From a virus, in IMG/VR virus record IMGVR_UViG_3300025477_000008, positions 1-40,883 of that record: DNA of 40,883 bases. The stretch is one strand, 5' to 3'. This document shows, in pieces, positions 1,859 through 22,664 of the stretch. A program made the translations under genes and the position numbers. Positions within the stretch are counted from its first letter, which is position 1; each line of letters begins with the position of its first letter. Below the pieces are notes generated by a model. It saw only the letters and a list, made by a program, of their open reading frames with translations, had not been told where the DNA came from and searched no databases.

Positions 1859-4800
1859 ATGGCACTATTCGGATCGTATGCCCCGCCTGGAGTCTACACG
1901 AGCGTCGTCATCAGCGGAGGGGGGCAGCCCCTCTTCGGCAGCGCCCGCATCCCCGTCATCATCGGGGAAGGGCAGGAGTTCTTCGCCCAGGACAACGTCG
2001 AGCTACATCGCGGCTCCTCGCCCGTGGCGGACGACCAGGTCGTGAACGAGAACATCTCCGACCAGGTGAAGTCCATCACCAACCAGTTCAAGGCCACCTA
2101 CTTCCCCGTGGTCACGGGGGACGGGTCCGGCACGGTGACGGACGACTCGTCCAAGGTGCAGGTCGTGGTGGAGGGGATACCCGCCACCGTCATCTCCCTT
2201 GACGGGGAGACGGGGGCCTTCACCACGCAGGAGCTCGTCACGCCCGGCCAGAACGTCGAGATCACCTACTACTTCAAGAGGACCGACACGCTCGTCCCCA
2301 ACGAGGACCTGTCGGCACAGGTCCCGGCCTTCTCGTCCCTCAAGGTATGGGACTCGACCCATGCCGTCAGCACCATCCTCGGCACCACCCTGCCGGGGGC
2401 CGTGGGCAACGAGATCACCCTGGCCCTGACGGACGACTACCTGAACTCGCCCCCGGGGACCGGCGTGTCCGACGCCCTGGCCGTGAGCGGGGCGGGGACC
2501 GACTCCATCTCCATTGACATCCGCAAGACCGACGGCAGCGTCCGGGACATCGAGGACCTCTACAGCCTCGTCCAGGCCGGGATACCGACCCTGGATGCGG
2601 GCTACCTGACGGCGACCGTCCCGGCCCCCGTCACCACCTCCCCGCCCACCGCCTTCCCGCTCAGCACCATGACGGCGACGCACTTCTCGGGCGGCGCGGG
2701 CCCGAACAGCAACATGGTCTTCAAGGTCAAGCACGTCCCCATCGTGGACGGCAGCAACGGGGGCGTCGTCACCACCGACCCGACCAAGGTCGCCGTGCTC
2801 GTCAATGGGGCAAGTGCCAAGGTCCGGGCGGTCGACGGCGTCCACGGGCTGGTGACTTTGCTCAACCCGGTGACGTACGGCTCCACGCTTGCCGCCACCT
2901 ACTACACCAACACCTACCAGAACACCTACGACCTGCTGCCGGCCAGCAACGTGGCCAGCATCACGGAAGTCGGGCTGGGGCCGGACCGCAGCGACTTCAT
3001 CGAGGACACCGACTTCGTCCTCGGCACCGACGCCAACGGCAACGGGACGATCAACTGGGGGGCCAGCACCACCACGGAGGTCGGCACCTCCACGACCGGC
3101 TACACCCCGTTCGGCCCGGCGCAGATCACCACCGCGCTGGTGGACGAGAAGGTCTACCTCCGCCCGTGCCACGGCTCGGTCAACGGCAGCAACCTGGCCT
3201 TCGTCCTTCCGGACGTGCCGGTCGACGGCAGCGGGCTGTCCCGCCCGACCGACGACCCCAGCAGGATCGCCGTGTACGTCGGGGCCGACCCGGTGTCGGC
3301 CCTCACCGCAGGGGCGGTAAGGGTCGTCTCCCTCTCGGGGAGCACGGGGGCGTTCTCCCTGTACGTCCCGCCGACGGCGGGGCAGGGCGTGTACGCCACC
3401 TACTGGCGCAACACCCTGAACGACCACAGCTACACCGTGGCGGTCAAGAGCCCCGGCATCCCGGGGCAGGGCACCTATTCCATCAAGGACGAGATCGGGC
3501 GCGTCCTGCCCGTGGCGACCAACGGGACCAACATAGTCACCGACACCAACTTCAACACCACCGGCATCGTATGGCCGAGCGCCTTCTCCGACCTCTGGGC
3601 CGAGCCCGGGTCGATTGACGAGGTCGTGACGCTGGCCTTCCAGGACGACGGCCTGTCCAACATCAGCATCCCCGCCACGCAGGCGACGCTGACCGCCCAG
3701 GGGATCGTCTTCACGGCATCGTCCCCCGGGGCGGCCGGGAATTCCGTCCAGGTCGCCTTCGACACCACGGGAAGCGGGGCACCCCTCGTCAACGGGAGCA
3801 AGGTGACGATAAGGGGGTCCATCACCCAGGCCGCCGCGGCGGCGCAGTTCCCCGTGACCGTGTCGGGAATCAGCATACTCGCATCGCTCGCGCCCGGCAA
3901 CACGGGATCCGTCCTGGTGCAGACGGCCGCCCCCCTGAACCTGTCGGACGGGCAGGACGCCGTCACCGAGCCGTACGCCGACCGCTACCTGGTCACGTCC
4001 TCGGCGGCCCCCAAGGGCTCCGCGGGCACGGGGTACCTCGGGCAGACCTACATCGACGCCAGCACGGCGCTCAAGTTCACCATCGTCGACCCGCAGGAGG
4101 CGCTCGGCTACGGCTACACCACGCTTCCCTCCCCGCAGTACGCCTTCCGTCCGGGGGACACGCTGACCTTCGTCATCAGCAGCGAGGCCGTCCGCCACAC
4201 CGGGTCGGCATACTTCCCCTACGGCAACGCGGAGCCGAACAACCTCGTCGCCATCCCGGGCCTCACGACCAAGGTGGCCACGAACTTCGGGGCCAACGTC
4301 GGGGACACCGCCATAATCGACACCTTCAACAAGTCGGGGAACGAGCCGCTGGTGGGTGAGTTCTACTACGTGTCGTTCACGGTCGCCAAGGCCGCCTCCG
4401 ACATGACCATCAAGCTCTACGACACACCGGAGGACGCCTACGCCGTCTACGGGCAGCCCAGCACGGTCAACCGGGTGTCCCTGGGAATCCAGCTCCTCAC
4501 GCAGAACGGGGCCCAGCAGTTCGGGGTCATCCAGGTGCCGAAGCAGGCCGGGTTCAACACGGCCTCGGACGCGGACTTCATCTCCGCCATACAAAGCCTT
4601 GCCGTGGCGCTGCCGGGAAGCACGCAGAAGGCGGCCGTCGTCGTGCCCCTGAGCACGAGCACGTCGGTCCATCAGTTCCTCAGCAGGTTCCTCATCACGC
4701 AGGCGGGCGTCAGGAACAAGGGCGAGGCCATCGGCTTCGTGGGGTACAGCCTCTACACCGACGCCAGCACGGCGCGTGCCAACGCCCGGGCAGTCAAGAA

Positions 4801-5407
4801 CGCCCGCATGATCGCCATCGGGATGCCCGCCGCGGCGGTGGTGCTCACCGACTCCCAGACCGGGGTCGGCATCGAGTACTCCGTGTCGGGCGAGTTCATG
4901 GCGGCGGCGCTGGCGGGCCTCAACCTCAACCCGTCGAACGACGTGGCCACGACGCTGACCGAACAATCCCTCGTCGGGTTCTCCAGGCTGCTCGTCCAGT
5001 ACGACGACACGACCATGAACCTGATGGCGGCCGACGGCCTGGTCTGCCTGACCAACAACAACGGGGCGCTCTTCGTCCGGCACTACAAGAGCACGGACCC
5101 GAGCAACCCCATCACGTCCGAGCCGACCTGCACGACGGTCACGGACTACGTCTGCCAGTTGTTCAGGGCCGACCTCAAGCAGTTCATCGGGCGCAAGCTG
5201 GTGGACGGGCTGACCACGGACATCAGCGTCGTCTGCTACTCCCGGCTGAACTCGCTCATCAACAACCAGATCATCTCCGGGTACAAGGCCCTGAACGTGG
5301 TCGAGGACCCGGACGACCCGACCACGGTGGACGTCACGGTGACGTTCAAGCCCATGTTCTCGTTGCTCTACATCAGCGTGACCTTCACGGTCACGACGAG
5401 CCTGTAA
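1859..5407 (+). CDS. Contractile tail sheath protein, unusually large
   Basis: 1182 residues. The N-terminus (MALFGSYAPPGVYTSVVIS) has the PGVY-type opening of myovirus sheath proteins. The last ~330 residues fit the conserved sheath core: AIGFVGYSLYTDAS, MAAALAGLNLNPSNDVA, LVCLTNNNGALFVRH, DYVCQLFRADLKQFIGRK and a final beta segment, as in subunits polymerising around the tail tube. Known sheaths are mostly 350-700 residues; the excess here lies in the middle, including three related beta repeats (about residues 81-150, 286-365, 431-534), probably displayed outside the sheath. ATG 1859 follows AACTTAAGGAGAAACGTC, a near-ideal ribosome site. A 13-bp hairpin follows the stop. The antisense frame is also long but is a GC-skew shadow. 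Confidence 0.88.
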   Translation: MALFGSYAPPGVYTSVVISGGGQPLFGSARIPVIIGEGQEFFAQDNVELHRGSSPVADDQVVNENISDQVKSITNQFKATYFPVVTGDGSGTVTDDSSKVQVVVEGIPATVISLDGETGAFTTQELVTPGQNVEITYYFKRTDTLVPNEDLSAQVPAFSSLKVWDSTHAVSTILGTTLPGAVGNEITLALTDDYLNSPPGTGVSDALAVSGAGTDSISIDIRKTDGSVRDIEDLYSLVQAGIPTLDAGYLTATVPAPVTTSPPTAFPLSTMTATHFSGGAGPNSNMVFKVKHVPIVDGSNGGVVTTDPTKVAVLVNGASAKVRAVDGVHGLVTLLNPVTYGSTLAATYYTNTYQNTYDLLPASNVASITEVGLGPDRSDFIEDTDFVLGTDANGNGTINWGASTTTEVGTSTTGYTPFGPAQITTALVDEKVYLRPCHGSVNGSNLAFVLPDVPVDGSGLSRPTDDPSRIAVYVGADPVSALTAGAVRVVSLSGSTGAFSLYVPPTAGQGVYATYWRNTLNDHSYTVAVKSPGIPGQGTYSIKDEIGRVLPVATNGTNIVTDTNFNTTGIVWPSAFSDLWAEPGSIDEVVTLAFQDDGLSNISIPATQATLTAQGIVFTASSPGAAGNSVQVAFDTTGSGAPLVNGSKVTIRGSITQAAAAAQFPVTVSGISILASLAPGNTGSVLVQTAAPLNLSDGQDAVTEPYADRYLVTSSAAPKGSAGTGYLGQTYIDASTALKFTIVDPQEALGYGYTTLPSPQYAFRPGDTLTFVISSEAVRHTGSAYFPYGNAEPNNLVAIPGLTTKVATNFGANVGDTAIIDTFNKSGNEPLVGEFYYVSFTVAKAASDMTIKLYDTPEDAYAVYGQPSTVNRVSLGIQLLTQNGAQQFGVIQVPKQAGFNTASDADFISAIQSLAVALPGSTQKAAVVVPLSTSTSVHQFLSRFLITQAGVRNKGEAIGFVGYSLYTDASTARANARAVKNARMIAIGMPAAAVVLTDSQTGVGIEYSVSGEFMAAALAGLNLNPSNDVATTLTEQSLVGFSRLLVQYDDTTMNLMAADGLVCLTNNNGALFVRHYKSTDPSNPITSEPTCTTVTDYVCQLFRADLKQFIGRKLVDGLTTDISVVCYSRLNSLINNQIISGYKALNVVEDPDDPTTVDVTVTFKPMFSLLYISVTFTVTTSL
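2099..3460 (+). repeat. Three dispersed Ig-like repeat units inside the sheath gene
   Basis: Three segments of the sheath protein share one pattern: a strand ending in V.DGSG or similar, T-D-D/P-S/T-K/R, a strand V.V.V.G..A.V, then V/S-L/V-D/S-G..G.F/V-T/S-L, a P-rich turn, G....TYY and N-T/L-x-N. They lie near 2099-2308, 2714-2953 and 3150-3460. The protein pattern is clear by eye; DNA identity is low, so the duplication is old. They are probably surface-exposed beta sandwiches. Confidence 0.65.
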
Positions 5408-8542: not shown

Positions 8543-8600
8543 AGACGGGCCTTTAGTCAAGGACGGGACGGGCACATGGCCCGCATCCTGTTGTGTCGTT

Positions 8601-8640
8601 CCATTCTTAGCCTATTCTGTTGTACCATTTTTAGCTTATT
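8601..8640. repeat. AT-rich tandem 16-mer between convergent genes
   Basis: CCATTCTTAGCCTATT at 8601-8616 is repeated as CCATTTTTAGCTTATT at 8625-8640, a 24-base period with two differences. Both units are followed or preceded by TGTTGT/GTGTCG. The second copy overlaps the stop codon of the leftward gene 8636-9004. The block is visibly AT-rich against GC-rich flanks. It could be a protein-binding site or a trace of the insertion that brought in the leftward gene. Confidence 0.6.
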
Positions 8641-9004
8641 GTGTCGAGGTCATGAGCATCTTGTATCTCTTCGACGGATGCTTGGTGAGGAACCCCGTCC
8701 TCCTCCCCTTCTCGTAGGGAATGCGCTCGTCCTTCCACTGCCCCGCCGTGGGGTCGGCTATACTTCCGTCGTCCCTGGCCAGGAACCAGTGGGTCCATCC
8801 CGGGCCGCTCAGGACCACCAGGACGTATCCCCTTTGCCTTCCCCATATGTGGAACAGGGTTTCGGCGGCAAGATAGCAGTGCCCGAAGGTGAAGTGGTCG
8901 CCCGGCTTCCTTTTCTCCAGCCATTCCGGGCTCATCAGGTCGTCCGACAGGGCTTCCTGGACGGCCCGCATGGCGCTTTTCTTGGTCAGGTCCCGTGTGC
9001 TCAT
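8636..9004 (-). CDS. Small Cys-His-Asp protein, transglutaminase/papain-like candidate
   Basis: 122 residues with three motifs in order: GHCYLAAETLFHIWG (Cys near residue 43), GPGWTHWFLARDDG (His near 72) and SIADPTAGQW (Asp near 84). This Cys...His...Asp order and spacing is that of small papain/transglutaminase-fold proteins found in many phages, usually unannotated. If active it would be a peptidase, amidase or crosslinking enzyme, but no substrate can be deduced. It is transcribed leftward, against the head/tail genes, and diverges from the 9078 gene across 73 bases that hold an inverted repeat CATCGGAT...ATCCGATG. Insertion as an independent unit (moron) is plausible. Confidence 0.65.
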   Translation of the reverse strand: MSTRDLTKKSAMRAVQEALSDDLMSPEWLEKRKPGDHFTFGHCYLAAETLFHIWGRQRGYVLVVLSGPGWTHWFLARDDGSIADPTAGQWKDERIPYEKGRRTGFLTKHPSKRYKMLMTSTQ

Positions 9005-9008
9005 GGGC

Positions 9009-9058
9009 TCATCGGATGCAATACCGGTTTTTCGTCAGAAATCCGTGTCTATCCGATG
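9009..9058. promoter_or_regulatory. Inverted repeat in a divergent intergenic region
   Basis: CATCGGAT near 9009 and ATCCGATG near 9050 are perfect 8-base inverted arms about 34 bases apart, lying between the divergent starts at 9004 (leftward) and 9078 (rightward). It could be an operator or an RNA hairpin in the 9078 leader. No convincing -10/-35 pair was identified for either gene, so the regulatory role is tentative. Confidence 0.35.
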
Positions 9059-9077
9059 CTTTATGTGAAAGGCGAAT

Positions 9078-12000
9078 ATGGCTTCCAGCTCTCTCTTGCT
9101 CAAGAAGTCCGCTTTGCTCCCAGTTCCCGGAATCGGGGAAGGGGTGGGGGGCATCGACCTCGTCACCAAGGAAAACCTCATAGACGACCCGGGGTACGCC
9201 GCTCACCAGCACCATGCCGACCCGGAGTACGACATGCCGTTCGGCCAGAAGGGGACGGAGGTGGAGGGCACCAAGCACGGATCCGCCAAGCACGCCGACT
9301 CCTCCGTCTGCGTCTGCGGGCACATGTGGCACGAGCACTGGGACAAGGGGGACTTCGGCTGCAAGAGCGAAGGACGCGGCTGCGAATGCAAGGGATTCAA
9401 GGCGAAGGCGGCCTCCCGGCCCTCGGAGCCGTCCTACAGGGCGGCCGAGGTCCTTGCCCATTTCGGCAGGATACGGAAGGGGAGCATCCGCAGGACGGCG
9501 CTGGCCCTCGACCGCATGGCTGCCGAGGACGCCAGGGATTTCGCCCATGAGCCCGTCGAGGAGTTTACCAAGAGGGTGACGCCCGTCAGCCCGCTCCTCA
9601 AGGAGCCGGACCCCGAGACCGCCACGTTCTTCAAGGAGAGCGAGGAGGGCACCGAACGGGGCGGGGACGCCCCGCCCAGCGCCGACCCGGACCTGGTTGC
9701 CTACATAAAAAGCAAGGGCATGGACCCTCGCTGGATTCCGGTCGAGCGCCTGCCCGGCAAGCGGATGAAGGACTACCCCATAACCAGGGCGATCCTGGAA
9801 TGGGAGAAGTCGACGGGGAAGCATTTCGGGGACCCCTCCCTGACCGATGCCGAACGGGAAAGGCTGACGAAATGGGGCGGGGGGAAGAAAGAAAAGGTAG
9901 ATACCATTTCTTTCCAGGAAACGGAGGATTGGGGTATCGTTCCCCTGGACGAGGACATCGGCGTCGCCTTCGACAGGGAGGAGCTCAGGGAGGCGATAAG
10001 AGGAGTCCTGGGCACGCTGACCCCTCGCGAGCAGAAAGTCATCGAAAGGCGGTTCAACCTGGACGGAAGGGGCGGGGCCACCCCTGAGGAAATAGGGAAT
10101 GAGTTTGCGGTTAACAGGGAGCGGATACGCCAGATCGAGGCAAAGGCCCTGCGCAAGCTGCGCCATCCCTCCAGGAGCAGGCGCTTGCGCCCGTTCGTCT
10201 CGGCCCTCCTCAAAAAGGCGGAATGGGATAGTAGACAGGCCGCCGAGGCCATAGGAAAGGTGTTCGTCGGCGAGTGGAACGACATCCCGGACGACGTCAT
10301 TGAGGAGGCTGCCAAGATGGCATCCGGCATCTTGGGGACGGCCTACATATTCTTTTCGCCCGAGGGGGCAAGGAACATTCGGTCGCAAAATGCTGGGTGG
10401 TCCGTAGGCAGCAAGTCGGTTCCCCTACAAGAAGGATCTAAACTGGTGGCAATGGTGGGCACCCCAAAGCCCAAGCAGGCCACCACGAAGTCCTACGGCG
10501 CTGGCACTCCCATCGGCGGGACGGCGAACGGCGTGGGGCAGCCCGCGCCCGGCGACCAGCCCACCCACCCCGCTTCGTTCCAGCAGCCCGCCCAGCAGCC
10601 AGCCCAACAGAGTGCCCAGCACCCAGCCGGGCCCGTGCAGCAGGAACAGCAGCAAACGCAGCAGCAAGGGCGGCAGGGGCGGCCCTACCAACGAGGCCAG
10701 TCCCTGTCGGTCGATCCCAATGCCCCGCCTGGCGTTCCGCAGAACGTCGCCGACCAGGACAGCATGGTCAGCGAGATAGTCAGGCAGCTCCAGGAGAAGA
10801 TGTCGGCCCTAGAGTCGAAGGTGGAAATCCACGAGTCACCCGACCTGCTGCCGCCCCGCACCGAGCTCAGGAAGCACCTCGACCCGTCGCTCGTGGACGA
10901 GGAGGACAGGATTCCCATCCCGGTGAGCAAGGGGGCGGGCAGCGCCGAGGAGGACGACGAGGACGACGAGGACGACAGGGGGCCGATACCCGACCTCGGC
11001 ACCCTGTACGGGAGGCCGATAGAAAAGACGGATTTCCCGGCTCCTTCCGGACCGCAGGTGCATTGCCCCGTTTGCTGGCAGAACCAGACGGATTGGACGG
11101 ACGATGAGATTCGGCGGCATGCCCAGAGTTGTGGGAAGGCCTCGGGGCCGTCCGGGGGTGGGGAGCTTAATGACCTCGTGGAGAGGGGCACCCACGACCG
11201 GTGCCAGGAGCCGGGATGCGGGGCGATAATAAGCAAGCTGTATATGAAAGACCACATGCGGACCTTCCATCCCCATGCCGACCCGGCGTCGTACCTGGAC
11301 CTCACCGACGAGGACAGGAGGTTCCTCCAGGAGATGAGGATACGGGGGGCCAAGAAGGCCTCCGACTGGGATCCCATCGGGGCGAAGAAGCAGTACGACG
11401 AGGCATGCAGGCTGTGGGACGAGGGCAGGCAGAACGATGCGACGGAGGCGCTGCGCTCCTCCGTCCGCTCCAACCCCTACCACGGGCCCGCCCACTTCAG
11501 GCTCGGGGTGGCCCTCGCCCATGAGGGGAACGAGGAGGAGGCGCTCGCCGAGCTGGGGCTGGCGCTCAAGGCAAGGCCCAGGAACACGTGGGCCTACCAT
11601 ACCATCGTGGCGGAGATGGACAAGAAGGGCGACCTGGACGGGCTGCCGCAGTCCGTGAGGAAGTTCATCGGGGACAATATGGTCTCCAAGCAGGCGGGAG
11701 GGGGGCCGACCAAGCGCTGCGGGCCCATCATCATCGATCAGAATGGGTGGCTTACCCCGGAAGGCGACTTCGTTCCCGTAGCAGTGGACAAAAGCCACCT
11801 TGAAGAAGGCTTCGAATCGGCGGTCCGGGTCATTTGCACTCCGCCTTTCGTCGCCTTCGACATCCAAGTAGACTCCCCGAGAGTTCGGGAAGTGGTCAAG
11901 GAGGCCTTGCGCAACAACCCAGGGCTGCAAACCGTGGAAATCGAGATTCAGGGGGTCGAGTTCGAGGACAAGCTCAATCCGGAACAAGCCGAGGAACTCC

Positions 12001-12185
12001 TGGACAGCTACCGCTGGAGGCCCGAGTACCGAAAGAAAAGCAAGGTCGCCGTCCAGACCGAGGAAGGGGTCAACGAGGTGTGCCCGAACTGCCATGGCCA
12101 GAAGACCAAGCCCGTCGACGACCCGGAGGTGGAGGGCGGAAACCTAGTGGAATGCCTGACTTGCGGGGCATTCTTCGCCAAGTAG
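9078..12185 (+). CDS. Giant modular protein with RpoD-type sigma region 4, zinc fingers and TPR-like repeats
   Basis: 1035 residues. Order: N-terminal Cys/His cluster ([11 protein letters not shown]...CECKGF, ~75-110); helical segment; sigma-70 region 4 at ~299-373 with [13 protein letters not shown], helix-turn-helix [20 protein letters not shown] and [18 protein letters not shown], nearly the RpoD consensus; Gln/Pro-rich linker (~490-540); acidic stretch; CPVC...H...C finger (~663-685); CQEPGC...H...H finger (~709-731); TPR-like helices (~763-850); a beta segment with [15 protein letters not shown]-terminal CPNC...CLTC ribbon. No sigma region 2 was found. It precedes the protease and scaffold genes, so it is made with virion proteins. 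It could be a virion-delivered transcription factor, or DNA-binding parts reused structurally. ATG 9078 follows GTGAAAGGCG. Confidence 0.8.
9972..10196 (+). other. Sigma-70 region 4 coding segment
   Basis: Encodes residues 299-373 of the 1035-residue protein. The recognition part [20 protein letters not shown] differs from the RpoD consensus mainly at the T-to-N change before RERIRQIE, and is followed by SRSRRLRPF, which also matches the RpoD terminus. In RpoD this domain contacts the -35 element and the beta flap. Here it is internal rather than C-terminal, and more than 650 residues follow it. Confidence 0.85.
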
Positions 12186-12222: not shown

Positions 12223-13125
12223 ATGTCGTTCAAGAAGATAGCCCAGGCCGTGCTTTTCGAGCCTACGATGACTTCCTGCGACTGGGGGAGGATGTGGGGG
12301 GATCGCGCCTTCCGCGGGTGCGCCGTCGACAGGGCGCATCCCTTCTGCAAGACCGCGGCCGACCACACCAAGTACCTGCTCAGCCATTGCACCATTATGA
12401 GCTCGGTGGCCTGCGAGTCCGAGCCCAACGACTACCTGATCCGCCCCGCGTCGGCGCATCTCGTTAACAACAACGACGATGCATGGGAGAATTCCGTCCT
12501 CAAGCTGTCCCACAAGAGCTTCGTGGGGGCATTCAACTTCGTCGAGCACTTCCAGAACAGCAAGTATGCGAAGGGGCACGTCATCGACAGCATCCTCCGC
12601 AAGATACACCTCACCCAGGACCCCCGGGACGACGTTTTCTTCGTCGACATCCTCGTGGCGACGGACCTCTCGCACCACAAGCTTGCCGACGACATAAGGA
12701 GCAGGAAGGTCAAGTACCTGTCGATGGGGTGCGTCACCGACCTCGTCATATGCTCCTTCTGCGGGCAGCACGTCACGGACGCGAGCAGCTACTGCCACCA
12801 CCTCCAGTTCAACAAGGGCACGTTCCTGCCGGACGACGACGGGGTGCCGCGCCGCGTGGCGGAGCTCTGCGGGCACAGGACCCTCCCCGGAGGGGGGGTG
12901 AAGTTCGTGGAGGCCAGCTGGGTGCAGACCCCGGCGTTCCCGGGGGCGATGCAGAGGTCCATAGTGGCGGACGAGTGGCTGGGCCCCGCCACCCGCTTCA
13001 CGAGCAGGGTCGAGGCCTCGGGAAAAGAGGCGTTCTCCAAGGCGGCCTCGGAAAGTGGCGACTATTCAAGTCCTTATTTGGGGGAGCTGTTGCTCTCAAG
13101 TGACGACGGAAGGAACCTAAGGTAA
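12223..13125 (+). CDS. Prohead (head maturation) protease-like protein
   Basis: 300 residues directly before the scaffold-like gene. The likely catalytic pair is His109 (FNFVEHFQNS) and Ser167 (VKYLSMGC), matching the H...(L/G)SMG pattern of herpesvirus-type caudoviral prohead serine proteases. A small Cys/His module (CSFCGQHV...SYCHHL, ~177-195) follows the serine, as in proteases of some large myoviruses. It would cleave scaffold and capsid N-termini inside the prohead. The TAA overlaps the next ATG as TAATG, so scaffold translation is coupled. ATG 12223 follows TTAGGGAACC; TATATTA just upstream could be a -10 box. Confidence 0.72.
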   Translation: MSFKKIAQAVLFEPTMTSCDWGRMWGDRAFRGCAVDRAHPFCKTAADHTKYLLSHCTIMSSVACESEPNDYLIRPASAHLVNNNDDAWENSVLKLSHKSFVGAFNFVEHFQNSKYAKGHVIDSILRKIHLTQDPRDDVFFVDILVATDLSHHKLADDIRSRKVKYLSMGCVTDLVICSFCGQHVTDASSYCHHLQFNKGTFLPDDDGVPRRVAELCGHRTLPGGGVKFVEASWVQTPAFPGAMQRSIVADEWLGPATRFTSRVEASGKEAFSKAASESGDYSSPYLGELLLSSDDGRNLR

Positions 13126-15308
13126 TGGCAAAGCCAAAGGCCGATACGATCATTGCAACCTACAGGCGCAAGCTCGCCGAGCTCGGCGAGCTGGACAACG
13201 AAATCAAGAGCCTGGACATGTCCCTCCCCGAGGGGGAGGGGGAGAAGACGTTCGACTACCTCGCCGAGAAGCGGGGGGAGATCGAGCAGGAAATCCGGGC
13301 CATGAAAGAGAAGGTGGACCTCCTCACCGCGTGGGAGAGGTTCAAGGAGAGCCAGAACTGGTCGGACGAGCTGAAGTCCGAGCTGGACGGACTGGACGAG
13401 GAGATAGGGAACATCGCCACCGGCAAGGGCACGGACCTGGTGGAGGCTGGCGGGAACCTGGTCCCCGAAACGCCGCCCGCGCCTGCGGGAGCCAAGCCAG
13501 ACGTGCCGGAAGCGCCCCCGGCCGAGGGGGAGGGAGTCCCTCCCGAAACCCCCCCGGAAGGGGCATCGCCAAGCGAACCATCGGCGGGGGCCGCGCCCCC
13601 GTCTGAAGCGCCCCCGCCCGCCCCGGCAGGGGCACCGTCCGCCTCCCTAGCGGGGGAGCCGGTGCAGGCCAGCAAGGAAAGCAACTACCAAACTCAAGAT
13701 AAGAAGGGAAATTGTCCGCCCGAAAAGGGGACGAAGCAGAGAGGAAGAGCCATGGCAAATGAAAAGAAGTCTTCGCTGAAGGAAAAGCTCGCCGAGATGA
13801 AGGTCAGCAGGGAGGCGATCACCCGGGAGGCCAAGACCCGCGTCGCCTGCGCCTGGACCATCGCCAAGACGATGCTGCCGGGGGCCCCGCCCGAAACGCA
13901 GCAAACGTTCGCGGCGTCGCTGCTCCAGAACAAGACCTGCGCGCTCAAGGCGGCCCTGCGCCAGACGGCGATCAACGCCCACTACACCAAGGTGGCGGAA
14001 ACGCTCAAGGAGGTCCACAAGGTCGAGATGAACGACCTACTTGAGAAGCCCGAAGTCCTCGCGAAGGAAAAGAGCGCCGTCAAGGCTGAGGTCCGGGGCG
14101 AGGCGAAGAACGCCGCCCCCGCCGAGAAGACGGCCGACGACCGCAAGGACGCCGGACCCCAGACGCCGACCTACAACGACGGTCGCGGATGCGGGGGAGG
14201 GACGCACAGCGAGCCGAAGGAGCTCGACGCCTCCAAGGCCGGGGAGCGCCCCGGGGCCGGGGAACGTCCCGGCGACACCGTGGACCTGTCGGAAGGCAAG
14301 TCCGCCTCCGGGAAGAAGGCGGCGGCATGTGCCGAGTGCAAGCCTGGCAAGCCGTGCCCGAAGTGCTCCAAGGAAGCCAACGCCAAGAAGGCGGACGACC
14401 CCGATGCAGGGCTCCACGGGGAGGATGCCGCCCCGCCAGCAGGTACCGCCCCGCCAACCGAGGCCGCCCCACCGGTCGAAGCGCCGCCGGCCGGCGACGC
14501 AGGCCTTCCCGGGCCCGGGCCGGAAGCCCCCGCCGCCGAGATGGTGACGGAGGAGAAGATCAAGGACCTCGGGGAGAAGGCCGACGAGCTGGCGGACGAA
14601 ATCCACCAGCTTGAGGAAGCCGTCGAGAAGGAAGAAAAAGAAGGCGAGGAGGTCCCCAAGGGCGTCGTCGAGAACGAGGGCGACGAGCTTGAGGCCGGAC
14701 TGCCCGAAGGCGAGGGCCAGGAGCTCAAGCTGGAGGAAATCTTCAACGACGAGGAGATGGGAGAGAAGGCCGCCGCCCTGGCCAACGAAGGCGATCCCGG
14801 GGGGACGGACTTCTTCGCCCCGTCCGCGGCCGCCGAGATGGAGGCCTCGCTGGAGGACGGCGACGGCATGGGCACCATCAGCGACATGTTCAACAGGCAG
14901 GGATCGGACGACGACCCATTGGCCGCCCTGATGACGGTCAAGTCCGCCGCCGAAGTGGCGGGGATCAGCGTCGTTCCCAGCTACACTGGGGAGGCGGCAA
15001 AGCACTTCGAACAGAACGAGGCCCCCAAGGAGACCCGCAATACCTCCAGCGACCACGAGGACGACCTCTGGGCCGAGGTGATACCGGATGGGAAGCCCGA
15101 GGAGCAGGGGGCCAAGCGGACCCCGCAGGACGCGACCAACGAACTGAAGCCCCCGAAGGAGGCTTCCGCCAAGGAGGGGGAGAAGAAGGCCGCCGCACCG
15201 GCAGCGCCCCCGACCCTGAAGAGAATCAAGCCGGTCATCGCCTCCGACAAGGAGCCGCCGCGCATCAACGTGGCCGCGGCCCTGTTCGCCGACGATTTCG
15301 AAGGATAG
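13125..15308 (+). CDS. Scaffold-like coiled-coil protein with probable internal start
   Basis: 727 residues, highly charged. Residues 1-100 form a coiled coil (AELGELDNEIKSLDM), followed by a Pro/Ala/Glu-rich linker (~108-185). At residue 210 (ATG 13752) a second N-terminus appears, MANEKKSSLKEKLAEMKVS, preceded by GAGAGGAAGAGCC, giving a 518-residue form. Then come a helical domain with cysteines, a small CAECKPGKPCPKC cluster (~403-415), long acidic coiled coils (~470-560) and a conserved-looking end RINVAAALFADDFEG. Position between protease and decoration/capsid genes plus composition indicate an internal scaffold, perhaps nested as in lambda C/Nu3. The linker may instead mark fusion of two genes. 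Confidence 0.68.
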   Translation: MAKPKADTIIATYRRKLAELGELDNEIKSLDMSLPEGEGEKTFDYLAEKRGEIEQEIRAMKEKVDLLTAWERFKESQNWSDELKSELDGLDEEIGNIATGKGTDLVEAGGNLVPETPPAPAGAKPDVPEAPPAEGEGVPPETPPEGASPSEPSAGAAPPSEAPPPAPAGAPSASLAGEPVQASKESNYQTQDKKGNCPPEKGTKQRGRAMANEKKSSLKEKLAEMKVSREAITREAKTRVACAWTIAKTMLPGAPPETQQTFAASLLQNKTCALKAALRQTAINAHYTKVAETLKEVHKVEMNDLLEKPEVLAKEKSAVKAEVRGEAKNAAPAEKTADDRKDAGPQTPTYNDGRGCGGGTHSEPKELDASKAGERPGAGERPGDTVDLSEGKSASGKKAAACAECKPGKPCPKCSKEANAKKADDPDAGLHGEDAAPPAGTAPPTEAAPPVEAPPAGDAGLPGPGPEAPAAEMVTEEKIKDLGEKADELADEIHQLEEAVEKEEKEGEEVPKGVVENEGDELEAGLPEGEGQELKLEEIFNDEEMGEKAAALANEGDPGGTDFFAPSAAAEMEASLEDGDGMGTISDMFNRQGSDDDPLAALMTVKSAAEVAGISVVPSYTGEAAKHFEQNEAPKETRNTSSDHEDDLWAEVIPDGKPEEQGAKRTPQDATNELKPPKEASAKEGEKKAAAPAAPPTLKRIKPVIASDKEPPRINVAAALFADDFEG
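13752..15308 (+). CDS. Putative internal in-frame product of the scaffold-like gene
   Basis: In-frame ATG at 13752 with AGAGGAAGAG upstream; the product would start MANEKKSSLKEKLAEM. The ~30 residues just before it (EKGTKQRGRA and similar) read like translated leader rather than folded protein. The start resembles an internal start of the 24478-26388 gene (MAKKSSREALREKVAEM). Nested scaffold products are known in other phages; here initiation is inferred from the signal alone. Confidence 0.45.
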   Translation: MANEKKSSLKEKLAEMKVSREAITREAKTRVACAWTIAKTMLPGAPPETQQTFAASLLQNKTCALKAALRQTAINAHYTKVAETLKEVHKVEMNDLLEKPEVLAKEKSAVKAEVRGEAKNAAPAEKTADDRKDAGPQTPTYNDGRGCGGGTHSEPKELDASKAGERPGAGERPGDTVDLSEGKSASGKKAAACAECKPGKPCPKCSKEANAKKADDPDAGLHGEDAAPPAGTAPPTEAAPPVEAPPAGDAGLPGPGPEAPAAEMVTEEKIKDLGEKADELADEIHQLEEAVEKEEKEGEEVPKGVVENEGDELEAGLPEGEGQELKLEEIFNDEEMGEKAAALANEGDPGGTDFFAPSAAAEMEASLEDGDGMGTISDMFNRQGSDDDPLAALMTVKSAAEVAGISVVPSYTGEAAKHFEQNEAPKETRNTSSDHEDDLWAEVIPDGKPEEQGAKRTPQDATNELKPPKEASAKEGEKKAAAPAAPPTLKRIKPVIASDKEPPRINVAAALFADDFEG

Positions 15309-16195: not shown

Positions 16196-17197
16196 ATGGC
16201 AAACCTCAGCCGCACACAGCAGCAGACCGCTATGATCGGTCAGTTGCTGAAGACCGCAGGAGGCCGCCAGAAGCTGGCCGCCTCGCTCGGACCGTCTCTC
16301 CGCAGGCGGCGTGACTACATGAGCATCGCACGCAAGGCGCTCATGGTCGAAACGCTGCCGGACGGCGCTCTGCCCATCTACGACAAGGAATTCGACACCG
16401 CGGCCCAGACCGTGGGCTCCACCCCCGGTGGGTCCTTCGTCGAAGCCTTCGTCGTGGGCGAGGAGGGCGGGGATATCGTCAGGGTCACCAAGCCCAAGAG
16501 GGTCACGGTGCCCACTTTCGAAATCGTTTCCAACCCGATGATCCCGATCTCCCAGATCAAGGAGCGTCGGTTCGATTTGGTCGCCCGTGCCCTTAACCTG
16601 GCGAAGGCCGAGGTTGGGGCCGCCGAGGACGGCTACGTGTTCGGCTTGTTCGACGCCGTAGCAGCCTCCGCGAACACGGCAGTGGCCGCGGACAACCAAG
16701 CGAGGAGTGGAAGCGGCACGTTCGACCCCATCTACAACGGCGACATCGCCATCAACGCCCCCATCGACCTCAACTCGATGGCGGACGGCTTCGGGCAGGT
16801 GCAACGGCACGACCTCTCGGTCGCGTTCTGCTTCTTCAACCCGAGGGACTACGTCGACCTGCTCAAATGGACCCAGCAGAATATTGACAGGGAAACCCAG
16901 CGCAAACTGCTCAAAACAGGAGTGATGGGCTATCTGTGGGGGGCCACGCTCCTCCAGTCCCGTAAGGTCGGTTACGGCTGCGTGTACATCCTGGCGGACG
17001 CCGAGTTCCTGGGCGTCATCCCGGAGCGCATCCCGCTGACCGTCATGTCCGCCGACCGTCCCGACCTGCGCCAGATCGGCTTCTCGATCTTCGAGAACCT
17101 CGGCTTCCTGGTCTTCAACCCGTCAGGCGTCCAGCGCCTGACCATCAACGGCAGGTACGAAGCGTTCGTCGCCAACCAGAACGTCGGCGAGAACTAG
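16196..17197 (+). CDS. Major capsid protein (HK97-fold)
   Basis: 333 residues. N-terminal helix (TQQQTAMIGQLLKTAGG), RRRRDYMSIARKALMVETLP, E-loop-like DKEFDTAAQTVGSTPGG, then FEIVSNPMIPISQIKERRFD (P-domain entry), a long helix NLAKAEVGAAEDGYVFGLFD, and a C-terminal strand region with VMSADRPDLRQIGFSIFENLGF. This order (N-arm, E-loop, spine helix, A-domain) fits HK97-fold capsid proteins of large myoviruses. It has a strong AAGGAGAATCACC ribosome site, follows decoration, scaffold and protease genes, and is followed by a textbook terminator, as expected for the most abundant virion protein. Cleavage of the basic N-terminus by the protease is possible. Confidence 0.75.
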   Translation: MANLSRTQQQTAMIGQLLKTAGGRQKLAASLGPSLRRRRDYMSIARKALMVETLPDGALPIYDKEFDTAAQTVGSTPGGSFVEAFVVGEEGGDIVRVTKPKRVTVPTFEIVSNPMIPISQIKERRFDLVARALNLAKAEVGAAEDGYVFGLFDAVAASANTAVAADNQARSGSGTFDPIYNGDIAINAPIDLNSMADGFGQVQRHDLSVAFCFFNPRDYVDLLKWTQQNIDRETQRKLLKTGVMGYLWGATLLQSRKVGYGCVYILADAEFLGVIPERIPLTVMSADRPDLRQIGFSIFENLGFLVFNPSGVQRLTINGRYEAFVANQNVGEN

Positions 17198-17220
17198 AAC
17201 TAGCCGCTTGGCAAGCCTCA

Positions 17221-17256
17221 ATGCGAGGGCCCTCCTTGGGCCCTCGCATTTCTTTG
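17221..17256 (+). terminator. Strong intrinsic terminator after the capsid gene
   Basis: ATGCGAGGGCCC, loop TCCTT, GGGCCCTCGCAT is a perfect 12-bp GC-rich stem, followed by TTCTTT. It starts 24 bases after the capsid stop and ends the head-gene transcript. Its position between convergent genes suits both directions, though the T-tract favours rightward termination. Confidence 0.88.
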
Positions 17257-18507: not shown

Positions 18508-18519
18508 TTGAGGGAGTCT

Positions 18520-20286
18520 ATGGCCTTTTCCCGCCCGCCGACAGTCATGTACCACGGCACTTCCGTACGTTCCTGGGAGCGGCATATCCCCGAAGGCACC
18601 TTGTTCCTTACCTCCAATTCCGAGGAGGCCCTTTATTTTGCGCTCGAAACCGCAAGGCATGACGAACACGAAGGGCGGAAGCCCGAGCCCATCGTGCTCG
18701 AAATCAAGTTTTCCGACCTAAGGGCCGGATCGGTCACACTCGAACCCGACTGGCTGGCCTACAACGAGACCGAGGAATCCCCCGACAATCCGACATGGGA
18801 AGACACCCTGAGCAAGTTTGGCACGTTTGCCATAAGCGGGAACGTCGAGGAATTGAAGGAGAAATTCAGGGTCGTAGAAAGGCCGGACTTTCGTAAGATG
18901 GGCTCCAGGATATGGGTCACCATACCGGTCCTGGTCCTCCGCCCGCCCTACACCAAGGTGGCGATCAGCCTCCCCGAGCTCATCCGGCAAACCAACGCGT
19001 TCTCGGTCAAGCGGCGGGCGGGATGCAATCCCACCCTCAAGAAGTCCCGGCCCAAGGACCTTTATTTGGAGTACAAGGTCGTCTGTCATGAGAACTACAG
19101 CGACCCCGCCGGGCACGACGTGCAGGTGCAGTTCGACCTCTCGCAGGTCGAGAAGACCCAGGACGCCAAGCGCCTCGACGTCCGGTGCTCGTGCAGTTGC
19201 CCCGCCTTCCTCTACTGGGGGGCGCAGTGGAACCTCCACCAGCGGGACGGGCTCCAGGGGCAGCCGCGCCCCCTCCTCCAGGCCCCGACGCAGAGGCTGG
19301 ATCTGCGGAACAACTTCGTCATCTGTAAGCACGTCAAGGCGGTGTTCGAGCGCATCCTGCCGGCCGTGCAACACAACATCGTCAACATCGTCAGGGAGCG
19401 CGAGGTGCGCCAGCAGAGGGAGCGCATGGAGCAGAAGCCCCCGACCGAGAAGGGCAAGCGCCTGAAGGAGAGGCAGGAGGAGCTCTGGAGGAAGAAGCAG
19501 ATAGAGAAGATCGTCAGGACCAAGGACGAGGAGAAGCAGAAGGCGATGATCGACGAGCTGGTCGAGAGGGAGGGCAAGCGCCTCCAGGAGGAGGAGGCCC
19601 CCCCTGTCCCGCCAGCCCCGGCCCCCGCGCCCCCTCCGGCGACCCCCGCACCCGCGCCTGCGCCCCCGGCAGCCGGGCCGGAGGAGGCAAAGGTCATCAA
19701 GAGGGACGAGCCCGCCACGGCAAGGCCTCCCGCCCCCCCTCCGGCACCCGCCGCACCGGCCCAGCCGAGCCTGCGCGACCTGGTCAGGCGGGAGGAAAGG
19801 AAGCTGCAGAAGGGCAAGAAGCCAGGATACCGCTACGTCTGCCCCTACGACGGGTTCAGGACGAACCTCCCCTGGAAGTTCAAGGAGCACCAGGAGGCCC
19901 ACGCCCCCCGAAAGGCGTCCTCCCGGGCCCCGGCAGGGGTCGGGGCACGGGAAAGGCTCAAGAATAGGCGTACGAGCTTGGAGGCGTCGCTGGTAGGCAT
20001 CGTGGGGGCCTCCTCGTCGGGGAAGGACGCCATGGGCACCCCGCAGGAGGTCGCCGACCTCATGGAGCGCCGCTCGTTCCAGGAAGAGGCCAGGCACGAC
20101 GACTATGCCATCTATTCCCGGCACGACGGGAAGATTTCCCTCACGGTGAGGTTCGAGGGCGGGAAGGTGAGGGACTCCACCCTGACGCTGATGTCGGGGG
20201 AGCGGGGCGAGGACCGCAAGGAGAGCGCCACCACCGAGGAAGGATTCGAGGGGGTCTGGCACGCCGCCCAGGCCTACGGGGACTAA
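18520..20286 (+). CDS. ADP-ribosyltransferase-like protein with SWIM zinc finger
   Basis: 588 residues. N-domain: PPTVMYHGTSVRSWERHIPE with His12, then LFLTSNSEEALYFALET with Tyr39, the H...Y pair of PARP/KptA/DarT-like ADP-ribosyltransferase folds; the third catalytic position (usually Glu/Gln) is not obvious. A SWIM finger follows, Cys225-x-Cys227 (CSCSCPAF) and Cys269-x-His271 (ICKHV), with YWGAQWNL between. Then come Lys/Glu coiled coil, Pro/Ala linkers, a CPYDGF...H...H finger-like piece lacking its second Cys (~441-460), and a C-terminal domain from residue ~505. ATG 20032 with GGGAAGGACGCC upstream could give an 84-residue product. ATG 18520 (GAGGGAG) is preferred to TTG 18508. Possibly a virion-injected host-modifying enzyme. 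Confidence 0.65.
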   Translation: MAFSRPPTVMYHGTSVRSWERHIPEGTLFLTSNSEEALYFALETARHDEHEGRKPEPIVLEIKFSDLRAGSVTLEPDWLAYNETEESPDNPTWEDTLSKFGTFAISGNVEELKEKFRVVERPDFRKMGSRIWVTIPVLVLRPPYTKVAISLPELIRQTNAFSVKRRAGCNPTLKKSRPKDLYLEYKVVCHENYSDPAGHDVQVQFDLSQVEKTQDAKRLDVRCSCSCPAFLYWGAQWNLHQRDGLQGQPRPLLQAPTQRLDLRNNFVICKHVKAVFERILPAVQHNIVNIVREREVRQQRERMEQKPPTEKGKRLKERQEELWRKKQIEKIVRTKDEEKQKAMIDELVEREGKRLQEEEAPPVPPAPAPAPPPATPAPAPAPPAAGPEEAKVIKRDEPATARPPAPPPAPAAPAQPSLRDLVRREERKLQKGKKPGYRYVCPYDGFRTNLPWKFKEHQEAHAPRKASSRAPAGVGARERLKNRRTSLEASLVGIVGASSSGKDAMGTPQEVADLMERRSFQEEARHDDYAIYSRHDGKISLTVRFEGGKVRDSTLTLMSGERGEDRKESATTEEGFEGVWHAAQAYGD

Positions 20287-20290
20287 GTAG

Positions 20291-20581
20291 ATGATAACCG
20301 TGCAGACCAACGGGCCGTACCCCAACCGCATACAGCTCCTCCTGGGGGACTGGGTGGGCCCGCTCGTCCGCCCCACGAGCCCGCCTGAGGCGTTCGACCC
20401 GTCCGTGGACCTGGAGGTGTACGTGGACGGGCTCCCCGTCCCCGTCTCCGCCTGGTTCTTCGACAGGATAAACAACCGGTACCTCCTGTTCACGGACAGG
20501 CCGATAAACCTCCGGGGGGTAATCCAGGTCATCCACCACATGCCGGACCCGCCGTTCCAGTATGGCGTGGCGATAGGGTAG
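20291..20581 (+). CDS. Small structural-type protein
   Basis: 96 residues, beta-rich and Pro-rich (MITVQTNGPYPNRIQLLLGD, LEVYVDGLPVPVSAWFFDR, YLLFTDRPINLRGVIQVIHH). No Cys cluster, signal or membrane helix. It starts two bases after the previous stop region and ends seven bases before the fibre-like gene, so the three are a tight operon. Possibly a connector or fibre-attachment protein; no family recognised. Confidence 0.6.
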   Translation: MITVQTNGPYPNRIQLLLGDWVGPLVRPTSPPEAFDPSVDLEVYVDGLPVPVSAWFFDRINNRYLLFTDRPINLRGVIQVIHHMPDPPFQYGVAIG

Positions 20582-20588
20582 GGGGGAT

Positions 20589-22664
20589 ATGCTGGCATCC
20601 ATCGTACAACAGGCATACTACAGGCTCGGAGTTCCCGACACTTCCTCGTCCGGCGTCGTGATGGGGGCGGGCAACTTCACCTTTACGACCTCGGGCTCCG
20701 TCGCCTACGTGCCCGGCCAATGGGTGCGGATGAGCCTTGCCGCCGACTCCAGCATCTACATGGACGGCATCGTGACGGCCTACTCCGCGGGAAGCCTTTC
20801 GATCAGCGTCCCCAACTATCCCATCGTCGCCGTCGACGTGGGGGCCAAGACCTTCACCATAACGGGCGACTGCGTCGACTATCTCGCCTCCGTCAACGCC
20901 TATGCACAGGGCGGCGAGGCCTTCACCATCGACGGCGGCCCGAACCATGGATACCAAGTCGCGAAATCGGCGGCATTTTCGGGCGGCCAGACCATCGTAA
21001 CAGTAGGCAACACCCCAGGCAGCGGGTTGAGCGGCGGGGTAATCCAGACCTTTAGCGGCAGCGGGATTCAGACCGGATGGAACATCCTCACCCTGACCGC
21101 CACGCTGAACCTGCCCTCCGCCCCCACGCCGGGCAACGACCTGCTGCTCATCGTCGAGGGCAGGTATGCGGGCGACGGAAGCGGCGGGTTGCCGCTCTAT
21201 GGCTACACGACCCTCACCGGCCTCCAGGCGTCGATGCCCCCGTTCAGCAACGTCAAATCCTTCACCACCGACACCCCGACGGGGGCCTGGTTCGGCAGGC
21301 GCACCGTGCAGCCGGGGGACGGGGCCGCCTACACGGTCTCGATCCGCAACACGGGGGAGGAGCCCGAGGTCCAGACCACCCACATCCTGATCCTGGAGAT
21401 AGCGAACGTCGTCGCGGCCTCGGCCCAAGTGCTGTACGAGCTGGGAAGCTACGGCTCGACGGACGCCTCCGGGGCGAGCCAGGGCACCAGCGACGTCCGG
21501 ATCGTCTGCGCCCTGACGGGCGACGGCGCTACGATTGTCCTCTCCGGGACCGGGTACTCGCCCCTGCGGTACGTCTACGACAGGGCCGTGCCCGGCTCCT
21601 TCCTGTGCAGCGTCGGGATCGCCCACGCCACCGATGGGCAGGCCCCCTTCACGATGACCTTCGGGGACGCCCCGGTCCACGGGGGGGAGAACACGCAGAC
21701 GGGCTATCAGGCGTGGATAGCGGAATACCTCGCCAAGACCCCCACGACCACGACGGTCGGCACCAGCCAAACCCCGTCCCTAGACGGGCACAGCGTCACC
21801 CTCACCGTGACGGTCGCCGGTAGCGGCGGCCCCCCCACCGGGACGGTGACGCTGACCGACAGCCTCGGCAGCATCGCGCCGCAGACCCTCAGCCTCGTGG
21901 GCGGGGTCGCAACCTACAGCACGAGCGCCCTGTCCATCGGCATCCATACCATGGGCGCGGCCTACAACGGCGACGGCGCGTTCGCCACAAGCTCGGGAAA
22001 CGTGGTGCAGGAAGTGGACAGCCTGTACCCCACGTTCCTTGCCATAAGCAGCGACTACAACCCCCAGTTCTTCGGGGACGAGGTCACCCTCACCTTTGCC
22101 GTCACGTCGTCGTCCGGCGTGCCGGCCGGCACCGTGGACGTTTCCGACAGCATAATGGGGGACCTCGGGCCGTTCCCCCTGATCGACGGCGTCGTCGCGC
22201 TCGTCATGGACATGGCGCACCCCTGGGCGGTGGACAGCCACCTCTTCGCCGCCGTCTATGGCGGGGACGGCACCCATGCCGGAAGCAGTTCCGGCCTCGT
22301 GCAGCTCATCCTTACGGCGAGCGGGCTCTTCCCGCTGGACCTGCCGGGCTTTGCGGTCATGGCGTCCTACGACGAGGAGGGCGACGTAAACCTCCCTCCA
22401 TGGGCGAGCTTCTCCGCCGTCCCCTCCATGGCCAGCCCGCTCCAGCCGGTGTACGTCCTCTGGACCAGCGTCAACGTGGCCAAGGTCCGCATATCCGGCA
22501 CGAACGGCATCGACACCCTGGATACGGGCAACCTTTTCACCACGGGGTCCGGGACCTACGAGGTGGCGTCCGGCTTCCACGACACGATAACCCTGAATTG
22601 CGCCGCCTACGACTCGTCGGGGAACGCCGTGGCCACGCAAAGCCTGCAAGTGACGGTGGCATAG
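20589..22664 (+). CDS. Fibre/adhesin-like protein with two bacterial Ig-like domains
   Basis: 691 residues, Gly/Ser/Thr-rich, without Cys clusters. N-terminal ~150 residues are beta-structured (QQAYYRLGVPDTSSSG). The middle (~165-385) resembles a carbohydrate-binding or jelly-roll domain. Two tandem Ig-like domains of the Big_3/5 type follow: TPTTTTVGTSQTPS...VTLTVTV...PTGTVTLTDS...YNGDGAF (~385-475) and a diverged copy with GDEVTLTFAV...PAGTVDVSDS...YGGDGTH (~480-575). A last beta domain has VNVAKVRISGTNG. Such domains decorate phage heads and tails and bind cell-surface glycans weakly. ATG 20589 follows GTAGGGGGG. Confidence 0.7.
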   Translation: MLASIVQQAYYRLGVPDTSSSGVVMGAGNFTFTTSGSVAYVPGQWVRMSLAADSSIYMDGIVTAYSAGSLSISVPNYPIVAVDVGAKTFTITGDCVDYLASVNAYAQGGEAFTIDGGPNHGYQVAKSAAFSGGQTIVTVGNTPGSGLSGGVIQTFSGSGIQTGWNILTLTATLNLPSAPTPGNDLLLIVEGRYAGDGSGGLPLYGYTTLTGLQASMPPFSNVKSFTTDTPTGAWFGRRTVQPGDGAAYTVSIRNTGEEPEVQTTHILILEIANVVAASAQVLYELGSYGSTDASGASQGTSDVRIVCALTGDGATIVLSGTGYSPLRYVYDRAVPGSFLCSVGIAHATDGQAPFTMTFGDAPVHGGENTQTGYQAWIAEYLAKTPTTTTVGTSQTPSLDGHSVTLTVTVAGSGGPPTGTVTLTDSLGSIAPQTLSLVGGVATYSTSALSIGIHTMGAAYNGDGAFATSSGNVVQEVDSLYPTFLAISSDYNPQFFGDEVTLTFAVTSSSGVPAGTVDVSDSIMGDLGPFPLIDGVVALVMDMAHPWAVDSHLFAAVYGGDGTHAGSSSGLVQLILTASGLFPLDLPGFAVMASYDEEGDVNLPPWASFSAVPSMASPLQPVYVLWTSVNVAKVRISGTNGIDTLDTGNLFTTGSGTYEVASGFHDTITLNCAAYDSSGNAVATQSLQVTVA

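Follow-up and report, generated by a model that had tools for sequence, protein, structure and literature searches.

An RpoD-like sigma region 4 in the variable slot of a modular head-cluster protein from a contractile-tailed phage

Phage particles are described as carrying proteins that act on the host's RNA polymerase. The virion-borne polymerase effectors in print include T4 Alt, an ADP-ribosyltransferase (ART) that is injected and acts on RNA polymerase, and the N4 RNA polymerase (PMC5512222). Rac, a GNAT, also acts on RNA polymerase (PMC7824862). The polyvalent proteins of phages and conjugative elements are large and modular; their genes lie next to those for virion components, and packaging into the particle followed by injection is predicted for them. 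ART and GNAT are among their domains (PMC5512222). In bacterial sigma factors, region 4 sits on the polymerase's beta flap and reads the −35 element, and residues R584, E585 and R588 of sigma70 are −35 determinants (PMC2613000). T4 gp33 shows no recognisable resemblance to sigma in its sequence, nor does it read DNA sequence (PMC2988020). For phage P-SS2, the particle proteome described in PMC2784084 held no peptides of the phage's two sigma factors.

We analysed a 40,883-nt stretch of phage DNA, IMG/VR record IMGVR_UViG_3300025477_000008, which we call the window. It matches the first part of a 157-kb contig from the same phage, with 99.98% identity over the stretches compared, 1078-27194. 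The window's + strand contains a reading frame of 1035 open codons (9078-12185), which we call the carrier gene, and its 1035-aa product P0001. Third-position GC in the carrier frame is 0.69 to 0.95 across the 12 counting windows that lie wholly within ORF 9078-12185, and the N-terminus of P0001 is collinear with sister proteins from residue 1 onward (57% with L017 over residues 1-68, and 33% with L049 over residues 1-189). An ORF that overlaps its start, at 8576-9550, was judged spurious; it is Arg/Pro-rich and has no family match.

A first-pass annotation of the letters had matched residues 299-373 of this protein to the C-terminal DNA-binding domain of RpoD, with a Sigma70_r4 profile search named as the check. 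That search gives a strong match, and the assignment is borne out by three collections: Pfam's Sigma70_r4 matches residues 310-363 (E 1.6e-15, with a score of 56.8 bits where 24.1 is the cut-off), RpoD/SigA chains in the PDB match residues 300-375 (best E 5.5e-20) and phrog_351, 'RNA polymerase sigma factor', matches residues 294-376 (E 1.7e-20). The similarity begins earlier than first placed. In a search with the surrounding 121 residues, to which many bacterial RpoD proteins align, it starts at about residues 283-287, in the linker before region 4, and stops at residues 374-376. As judged from these alignments, the captured piece is the end of the linker plus region 4 (residues ~283-375; 9924..10202, + strand), and it stops where RpoD itself stops. 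Three IMG/VR records contain the carrier gene with the same DNA throughout (0 differences in 3108 nt), which argues against an assembly chimera. With E values of 1e-15 to 1e-20 and three identical copies, we rejected chance or an assembly artefact as the source of the sigma region 4.

We numbered this piece against E. coli sigma70 using an ungapped alignment, where the sigma70 position equals the P0001 position plus 237. P0001 is identical to E. coli sigma70 at 15 of the 17 listed residues that we take to be the DNA and flap contacts, the two changes being I565L and T583N. The flap residues F563, L598 and L607 are kept, and the −35 residues likewise. Acidobacteriota provide the best tblastn matches to the RpoD piece among the matches listed. 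In a tree of 104 rows, the branch leading to P0001 is long (1.49 changes per column) and its base is weakly supported (73/60). Among the RpoD matches fetched, 42 positions are conserved at the 90% level or above, and P0001 keeps 38 of them; the set is biased in that the matches were picked by similarity. The conserved positions that have changed are G327N, L336P, V339I and T346N. The three copies of the gene show no variation.

The remainder of P0001 is organised around five anchors on the + strand. Anchor profiles place anchor 1 (consensus DPxYAxxQHHxxP ... KGTExE) at residues 34-70 (9177..9287), anchor 2 at residues 165-188 (9570..9641), anchor 3 (TKSYGTGTPxGGT) at residues 466-485 (10473..10532) and anchor 4 (HExPxxLPPRxDxRxHLD) at residues ~576-632 (10803..10973). 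Anchor 5 is a C-terminal four-Cys zinc ribbon at residues 1002-1035 (12081..12182), according to both profile and model; pLDDT is 78-93 across the final 35 residues of the AlphaFold model. Comparing the anchors delimits a putative cargo slot between anchors 2 and 3, at residues 189-465 (9642..10472, + strand). From sequence comparison, the slot of P0001 reads as a mosaic of three pieces: one that P0001 has in common, among the members compared, with L024 (50%, residues 199-250; 9672..9827, + strand), the RpoD piece, and one resembling L032 (residues ~398-460; 10269..10457, + strand). The likeness to L032 was noted by eye in the slot sequences, and tblastn matches residues 395-645 to L032 at 37%.

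Downstream of the slot, TPR-like repeats occupy residues 773-845 (11394..11612, + strand). TPR_16 (E 1.3e-6) and TPR_19 (E 8.3e-5) match there, both under their curated cut-offs, and the AlphaFold model has confident helices over residues ~766-870. The 660 residues after region 4 had been described as containing zinc fingers and TPR-like helices; the TPR-like part and a C-terminal zinc ribbon are found, and a finger near residues 656-685 gives a weak match (E 0.053). Across the whole model, 690 of the 1035 residues have a pLDDT below 50. The model is poor over region 4, where P0001 alone fills the alignment, and we do not use it as support for region 4. The phrog matches of P0001 are phrog_351, phrog_36 and, weakly, phrog_5559, with no others.

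We now consider the protein's relatives. Loci were collected by a capsid-protein search (80 of 153 kept), a protease search (80 of 118 kept) and a family-alignment search (41 loci), with many overlaps. Dropping repeats, fragments and loci that were too short reduced 161 loci with a protease match to 51 that differ in context and extend 3 kb or more upstream. Of these 51 distinct loci, 40 have a member of the carrier family upstream of the protease, 28 of them within 45 nt of it; in the other 11, the profiles saw no family member. We compared 33 of the 40 members, leaving out six apparent near copies (L087, L098, L099, L151, L159 and L166) and the split gene L091. Some near copies remain among the 33, and the number of members should not be taken as a number of lineages. 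Measured from stop to stop, members are 543 to 2572 residues long. The five anchors are colinear across the family. Anchors 2 and 3 are both seen in 28 of the 33 members, and the slot between them varies there from 6 to 599 residues. Alignment A1 was the source of the anchor profiles, so that its 24 members contain the anchors by construction. TPR models from Pfam match 10 of 24 members.

Several relatives have additional ORFs around the carrier gene. Two stand before it (L016 351-1304 and L058 1362-2327), and these we take to be GIY-YIG endonuclease-like from their motif. Three ORFs of 264-269 residues lie between carrier and protease (L010 4228-5037, L016 5002-5796 and L048 687-1496) and are presumably homing-endonuclease-like, as read by eye. 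An ORF directly before the protease in L039 (4327-5424), a locus where no family member was found, presumably resembles TnpB. At L010 1444-4205, the carrier gene itself is split into two overlapping ORFs.

The contents of the slot differ between sister proteins. A sigma region 4 is present in 1 of the 33 members compared, namely P0001, and in 1 of 24 by Pfam. A 138-residue module that starts with LYHVT occurs in 6 of the 33. It is found between anchors 2 and 3 in L139, L150 and L161; in the other three (L153, L165 and L180), one of the anchors is either absent or present twice, and the module's placement in the slot is less sure. A model of this module (pLDDT 76.6, from an alignment of 8 rows) matches ADP-ribosyltransferases in Foldseek (E 6.8e-4) and aligns with Tpt1/KptA at Z 10.2 over 85 residues and 2.4 A, followed by bacterial ART toxins and others. 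Neither a PDB sequence profile nor Pfam gave an ART match, which appeared in fold searches alone, and we describe the module as having a predicted ADP-ribosyltransferase fold. The slot of L052, which is the same contig as L161, holds a GNAT domain (E 1.8e-5), so that the ART fold and the GNAT occur together in one sister protein. No ART module was found in P0001. Apparent second copies of sigma region 4 in L150 and L153 (E ~0.001) fall inside the ART-fold module and were rejected as not sigma. ART-fold and GNAT modules in the same variable part of the sisters are as expected of injected effectors, and they strengthen the first-pass annotation's interpretation that the protein might be packaged and injected.

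The carrier gene lies in a cluster of virion genes on the + strand. The phage has a contractile tail, with a tail sheath gene identified by family match at 1859-5407; the sheath product has 1182 residues and the family match is confined to residues 850-1179. The head maturation protease (12223..13125; phrog_18299, E 6.6e-15) begins 37 nt past the carrier's stop codon. It is followed by a putative scaffold (13125..15308) and by the major capsid protein (16196..17197; phrog_2522, E 1.9e-41). The carrier gene had been described as lying directly before protease and scaffold genes; its place in the head cluster and the protease are confirmed, and the scaffold is assigned by position and composition alone, as its ORF has no family match in the databases searched and is conserved in relatives. 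Cleavage by the head protease at the FFKE anchor is not supported, the motif being missing from the capsid protein and seen in 4 of 25 scaffolds inspected out of 61.

Further along the structural cluster, the 592-residue product of 18508-20286 has a YHGTS motif near its start, which by eye we take to be ART-like, together with a sub-cut-off match to a SWIM zinc finger. The product of 20589-22664 contains two Big_3_5 Ig-like domains (E 1.5e-21). A tRNA-Gly gene at 20334-20413 lies within the cluster and overlaps ORF 20291-20581. The 157-kb contig holds 26 tRNA genes, mostly in arrays; one group has 9 (L390 11539-12767) and another 16 (L391 14687-19104), and one group has five Leu genes.

A consensus scan for terminators, which found 19 sites over the region against 11.8 expected, places a 13-pair terminator-like hairpin 3′ of the capsid gene (17220..17250, + strand). 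From 5446 up to that hairpin, the + strand has no other sites than three weak ones of 5 pairs each (9011, 15356 and 16810). Because these sites are few and weak, the carrier is probably co-expressed with the head cluster, as the earlier proposal of late expression would have it. A 15-nt element, CTATNCNNTGCTTTA, stands just 5′ of the carrier's start codon (9049..9063, + strand; from a scan of the window and the loci). It has one zero-mismatch copy in the window and one in the 157-kb contig, which was searched in pieces. Exact copies occur in 39 loci of the phage group, in 7 distinct contexts, always before the carrier's start codon; the exact form is absent from more distant members. A conserved, gene-specific upstream element means that the carrier's timing may differ from that of its neighbours. 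The RNA fold at the carrier's start codon is no better than those of shuffled sequences, and a sigma-70 promoter scan found 2 sites against 1.2 expected.

An isolated region 4 raises the question of a partner. No region 2 was found in P0001 or in the 157-kb contig, which may be incomplete, and the first-pass annotation's statement that the protein has none therefore holds. Among the 23 records searched for region 2, the 157-kb contig included, 21 gave none, and the 16 records searched for RNA polymerase subunits and for gp55, the window phage included, gave 0 of either; these records may be incomplete. PF04545 and phrog_351 each match the 157-kb contig once, at the RpoD piece. PF04545 exceeds its cut-off in 4 of 91 distinct records (50 and 45 searched, four of them twice), with sub-cut-off matches at E up to 0.01 in other records. 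Two of the four are the window phage; in the other two, G010 and G004, the matches are in separate ORFs (210 and 266 aa) in which region 2 is present as well. G010 (L193/L198) and G004 (L194/L199) are two large relatives with sigma-like ORFs that have regions 2 and 4.

With a probability of roughly 40%, we read P0001 as a modular effector carrier in a prohead-core position, whose slot contains a captured RpoD C-terminus that would engage the host's polymerase. The anchors and the C-terminal zinc ribbon would form the carrier, and the stretch between anchors 2 and 3 its cargo slot. In the window's lineage, the slot would have gained the C-terminal ~90-95 residues of a bacterial RpoD by in-frame fusion. 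The carrier would be synthesised alongside the head genes, loaded into the prohead core and ejected together with the phage DNA. Inside the cell, region 4 would dock on the beta flap of the host polymerase and read −35 elements, and it would either compete with the host sigma's region 4 or draw polymerase onto phage DNA ahead of phage gene expression. We infer packaging, ejection, polymerase binding and the direction of the effect. The wider proposal is tentative and falls short of even odds: that this phage group packs a protein with swappable cargo, and that one lineage delivers an RpoD region 4 by which the host's polymerase is captured or re-aimed before phage genes are read.

We favour the effector-carrier reading because region 4 is intact, because the family stands upstream of the protease and the sisters carry ART-fold and GNAT modules, and because no phage RNA polymerase, gp55 or region 2 was found in the window phage. 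Several observations count against it. No known capsid-targeting or cleavage signal was found in the carrier, which weighs against packaging, and a region 4 that stands alone, with no region 2, should have weak binding to both flap and DNA. The model is poor over region 4, 11 of the 51 loci have no member, and the carrier's timing may be separate. The sigma factors of P-SS2, with no peptides in its virion proteome, also count against delivery.

Alternatively, P0001 may not be packaged and may act inside the infected cell as a late co-activator. It would be a counterpart of gp33 that can read DNA, bound to the flap and to −35-like sites of the phage, with a region 2 partner that escaped recognition. 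We consider this unlikely, though it fares best among the rivals. It would fit a carrier gene that sits among head genes; T4 has a split sigma made of gp55 and the flap-binding gp33 (PMC2988020), and jumbo phages have minimal sigma factors with one HTH (PMC7824862). However, the partner it calls for was seen neither as region 2 nor as gp55 in the 157-kb contig (which may be incomplete), a general late factor is improbable when sister carriers have no sigma (1 of 33 has one), and the carrier's length and other modules are left unexplained. Quite unlikely, in our view, is a role as a binder internal to the head, where region 4 would retain DNA, or else host polymerase, inside the particle without any part in promoter choice. 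The core position and the intact DNA-reading helix agree with such a role, but sister carriers with the same anchors manage without region 4, and holding DNA needs no sequence-specific contacts.

We regard as improbable a third alternative, that region 4 is a sponge for region 4-targeting proteins of the host or of rival phages, such as AsiA- or Rsd-type anti-sigma factors, and would thereby shield transcription. The region 4 surface as a whole is kept, at 38 of 42 positions, in agreement with a sponge; its DNA-reading residues are kept too, though a sponge does not require them. Least probable of all is a functionless piece of rpoD captured as a passenger in a tolerant variable region, for while the module was seen in a single phage, four positions at least 90% conserved have changed (G327N, L336P, V339I, T346N) and the copies do not vary, free decay along a branch of 1.49 should have erased most of the 38 of 42 positions that are kept, unless the divergence is that of an unsampled donor.

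If the effector carrier is delivered as proposed, a part of a sigma factor would be carried in the virion, and a region 4 would be used without region 2 while keeping the −35 recognition that the flap-binding mimic gp33 lacks. The sigma cargo points to host RNA polymerase as a target. A comparison of slot contents across sister phages, which include an ART fold, GNAT, zinc modules and sigma region 4, would yield an inventory of effectors that may serve this large group of uncultured phages as infection begins.

The carrier can be compared with known systems at three levels. By gene position, it has a place that matches those of the T4 core genes 67 and 68, which precede protease gene 21; by sequence, the T4 proteins gp67 and gp68 match phrog_1064 and phrog_1049, whereas P0001 matches neither. 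By the sigma piece, P0001 is like bacterial RpoD/SigA in its region 4 sequence, linker end and contact residues, but the piece has been excised, lies internally in a phage protein and comes without regions 1-3. Like gp33, which binds the beta flap at the place of sigma region 4, P0001 is predicted to do so; gp33 has no sigma sequence, while P0001 keeps the RpoD sequence and its −35 helix. The one-HTH sigma factors of jumbo phages are, like P0001, region 4-like without region 2, but are described as separate proteins (PMC7824862), whereas that of P0001 is a module within a large head-cluster protein.

By cargo, the likeness to T4 Alt lies in the ART fold of the sister carriers and in the proposed action of a head-delivered protein on polymerase; Alt is an enzyme, whereas the cargo of P0001 is a predicted binding domain in a protein whose packaging we infer. 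Like the polyvalent proteins, P0001 mixes domains in one polypeptide (sigma region 4, TPR-like repeats, zinc ribbon) and is encoded in a virion-gene neighbourhood, directly before the protease and near the capsid gene. It differs in two respects. Polyvalent proteins have peptidase and LPD markers, and no zincin peptidase, LPD or other polyvalent marker is among the 24 Pfam families listed for 24 carrier members at E 0.01; they have no sigma domain, the word 'sigma' occurring 0 times in the main text of PMC5512222, and P0001 has a region 4. Neither a virion-borne sigma factor nor a sigma in polyvalent proteins was recognised in the open-access literature that we searched. The first-pass annotation had called a virion-borne sigma-4 protein a new way to redirect polymerase; virion-borne polymerase effectors and modular injected proteins are already in print, and what appears to be new, within that literature, is a sigma region 4 as the cargo of a modular head-cluster protein. 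Within this family of modular head-cluster proteins, P0001 is the version with a sigma piece, and sister versions carry ART-fold and GNAT modules.
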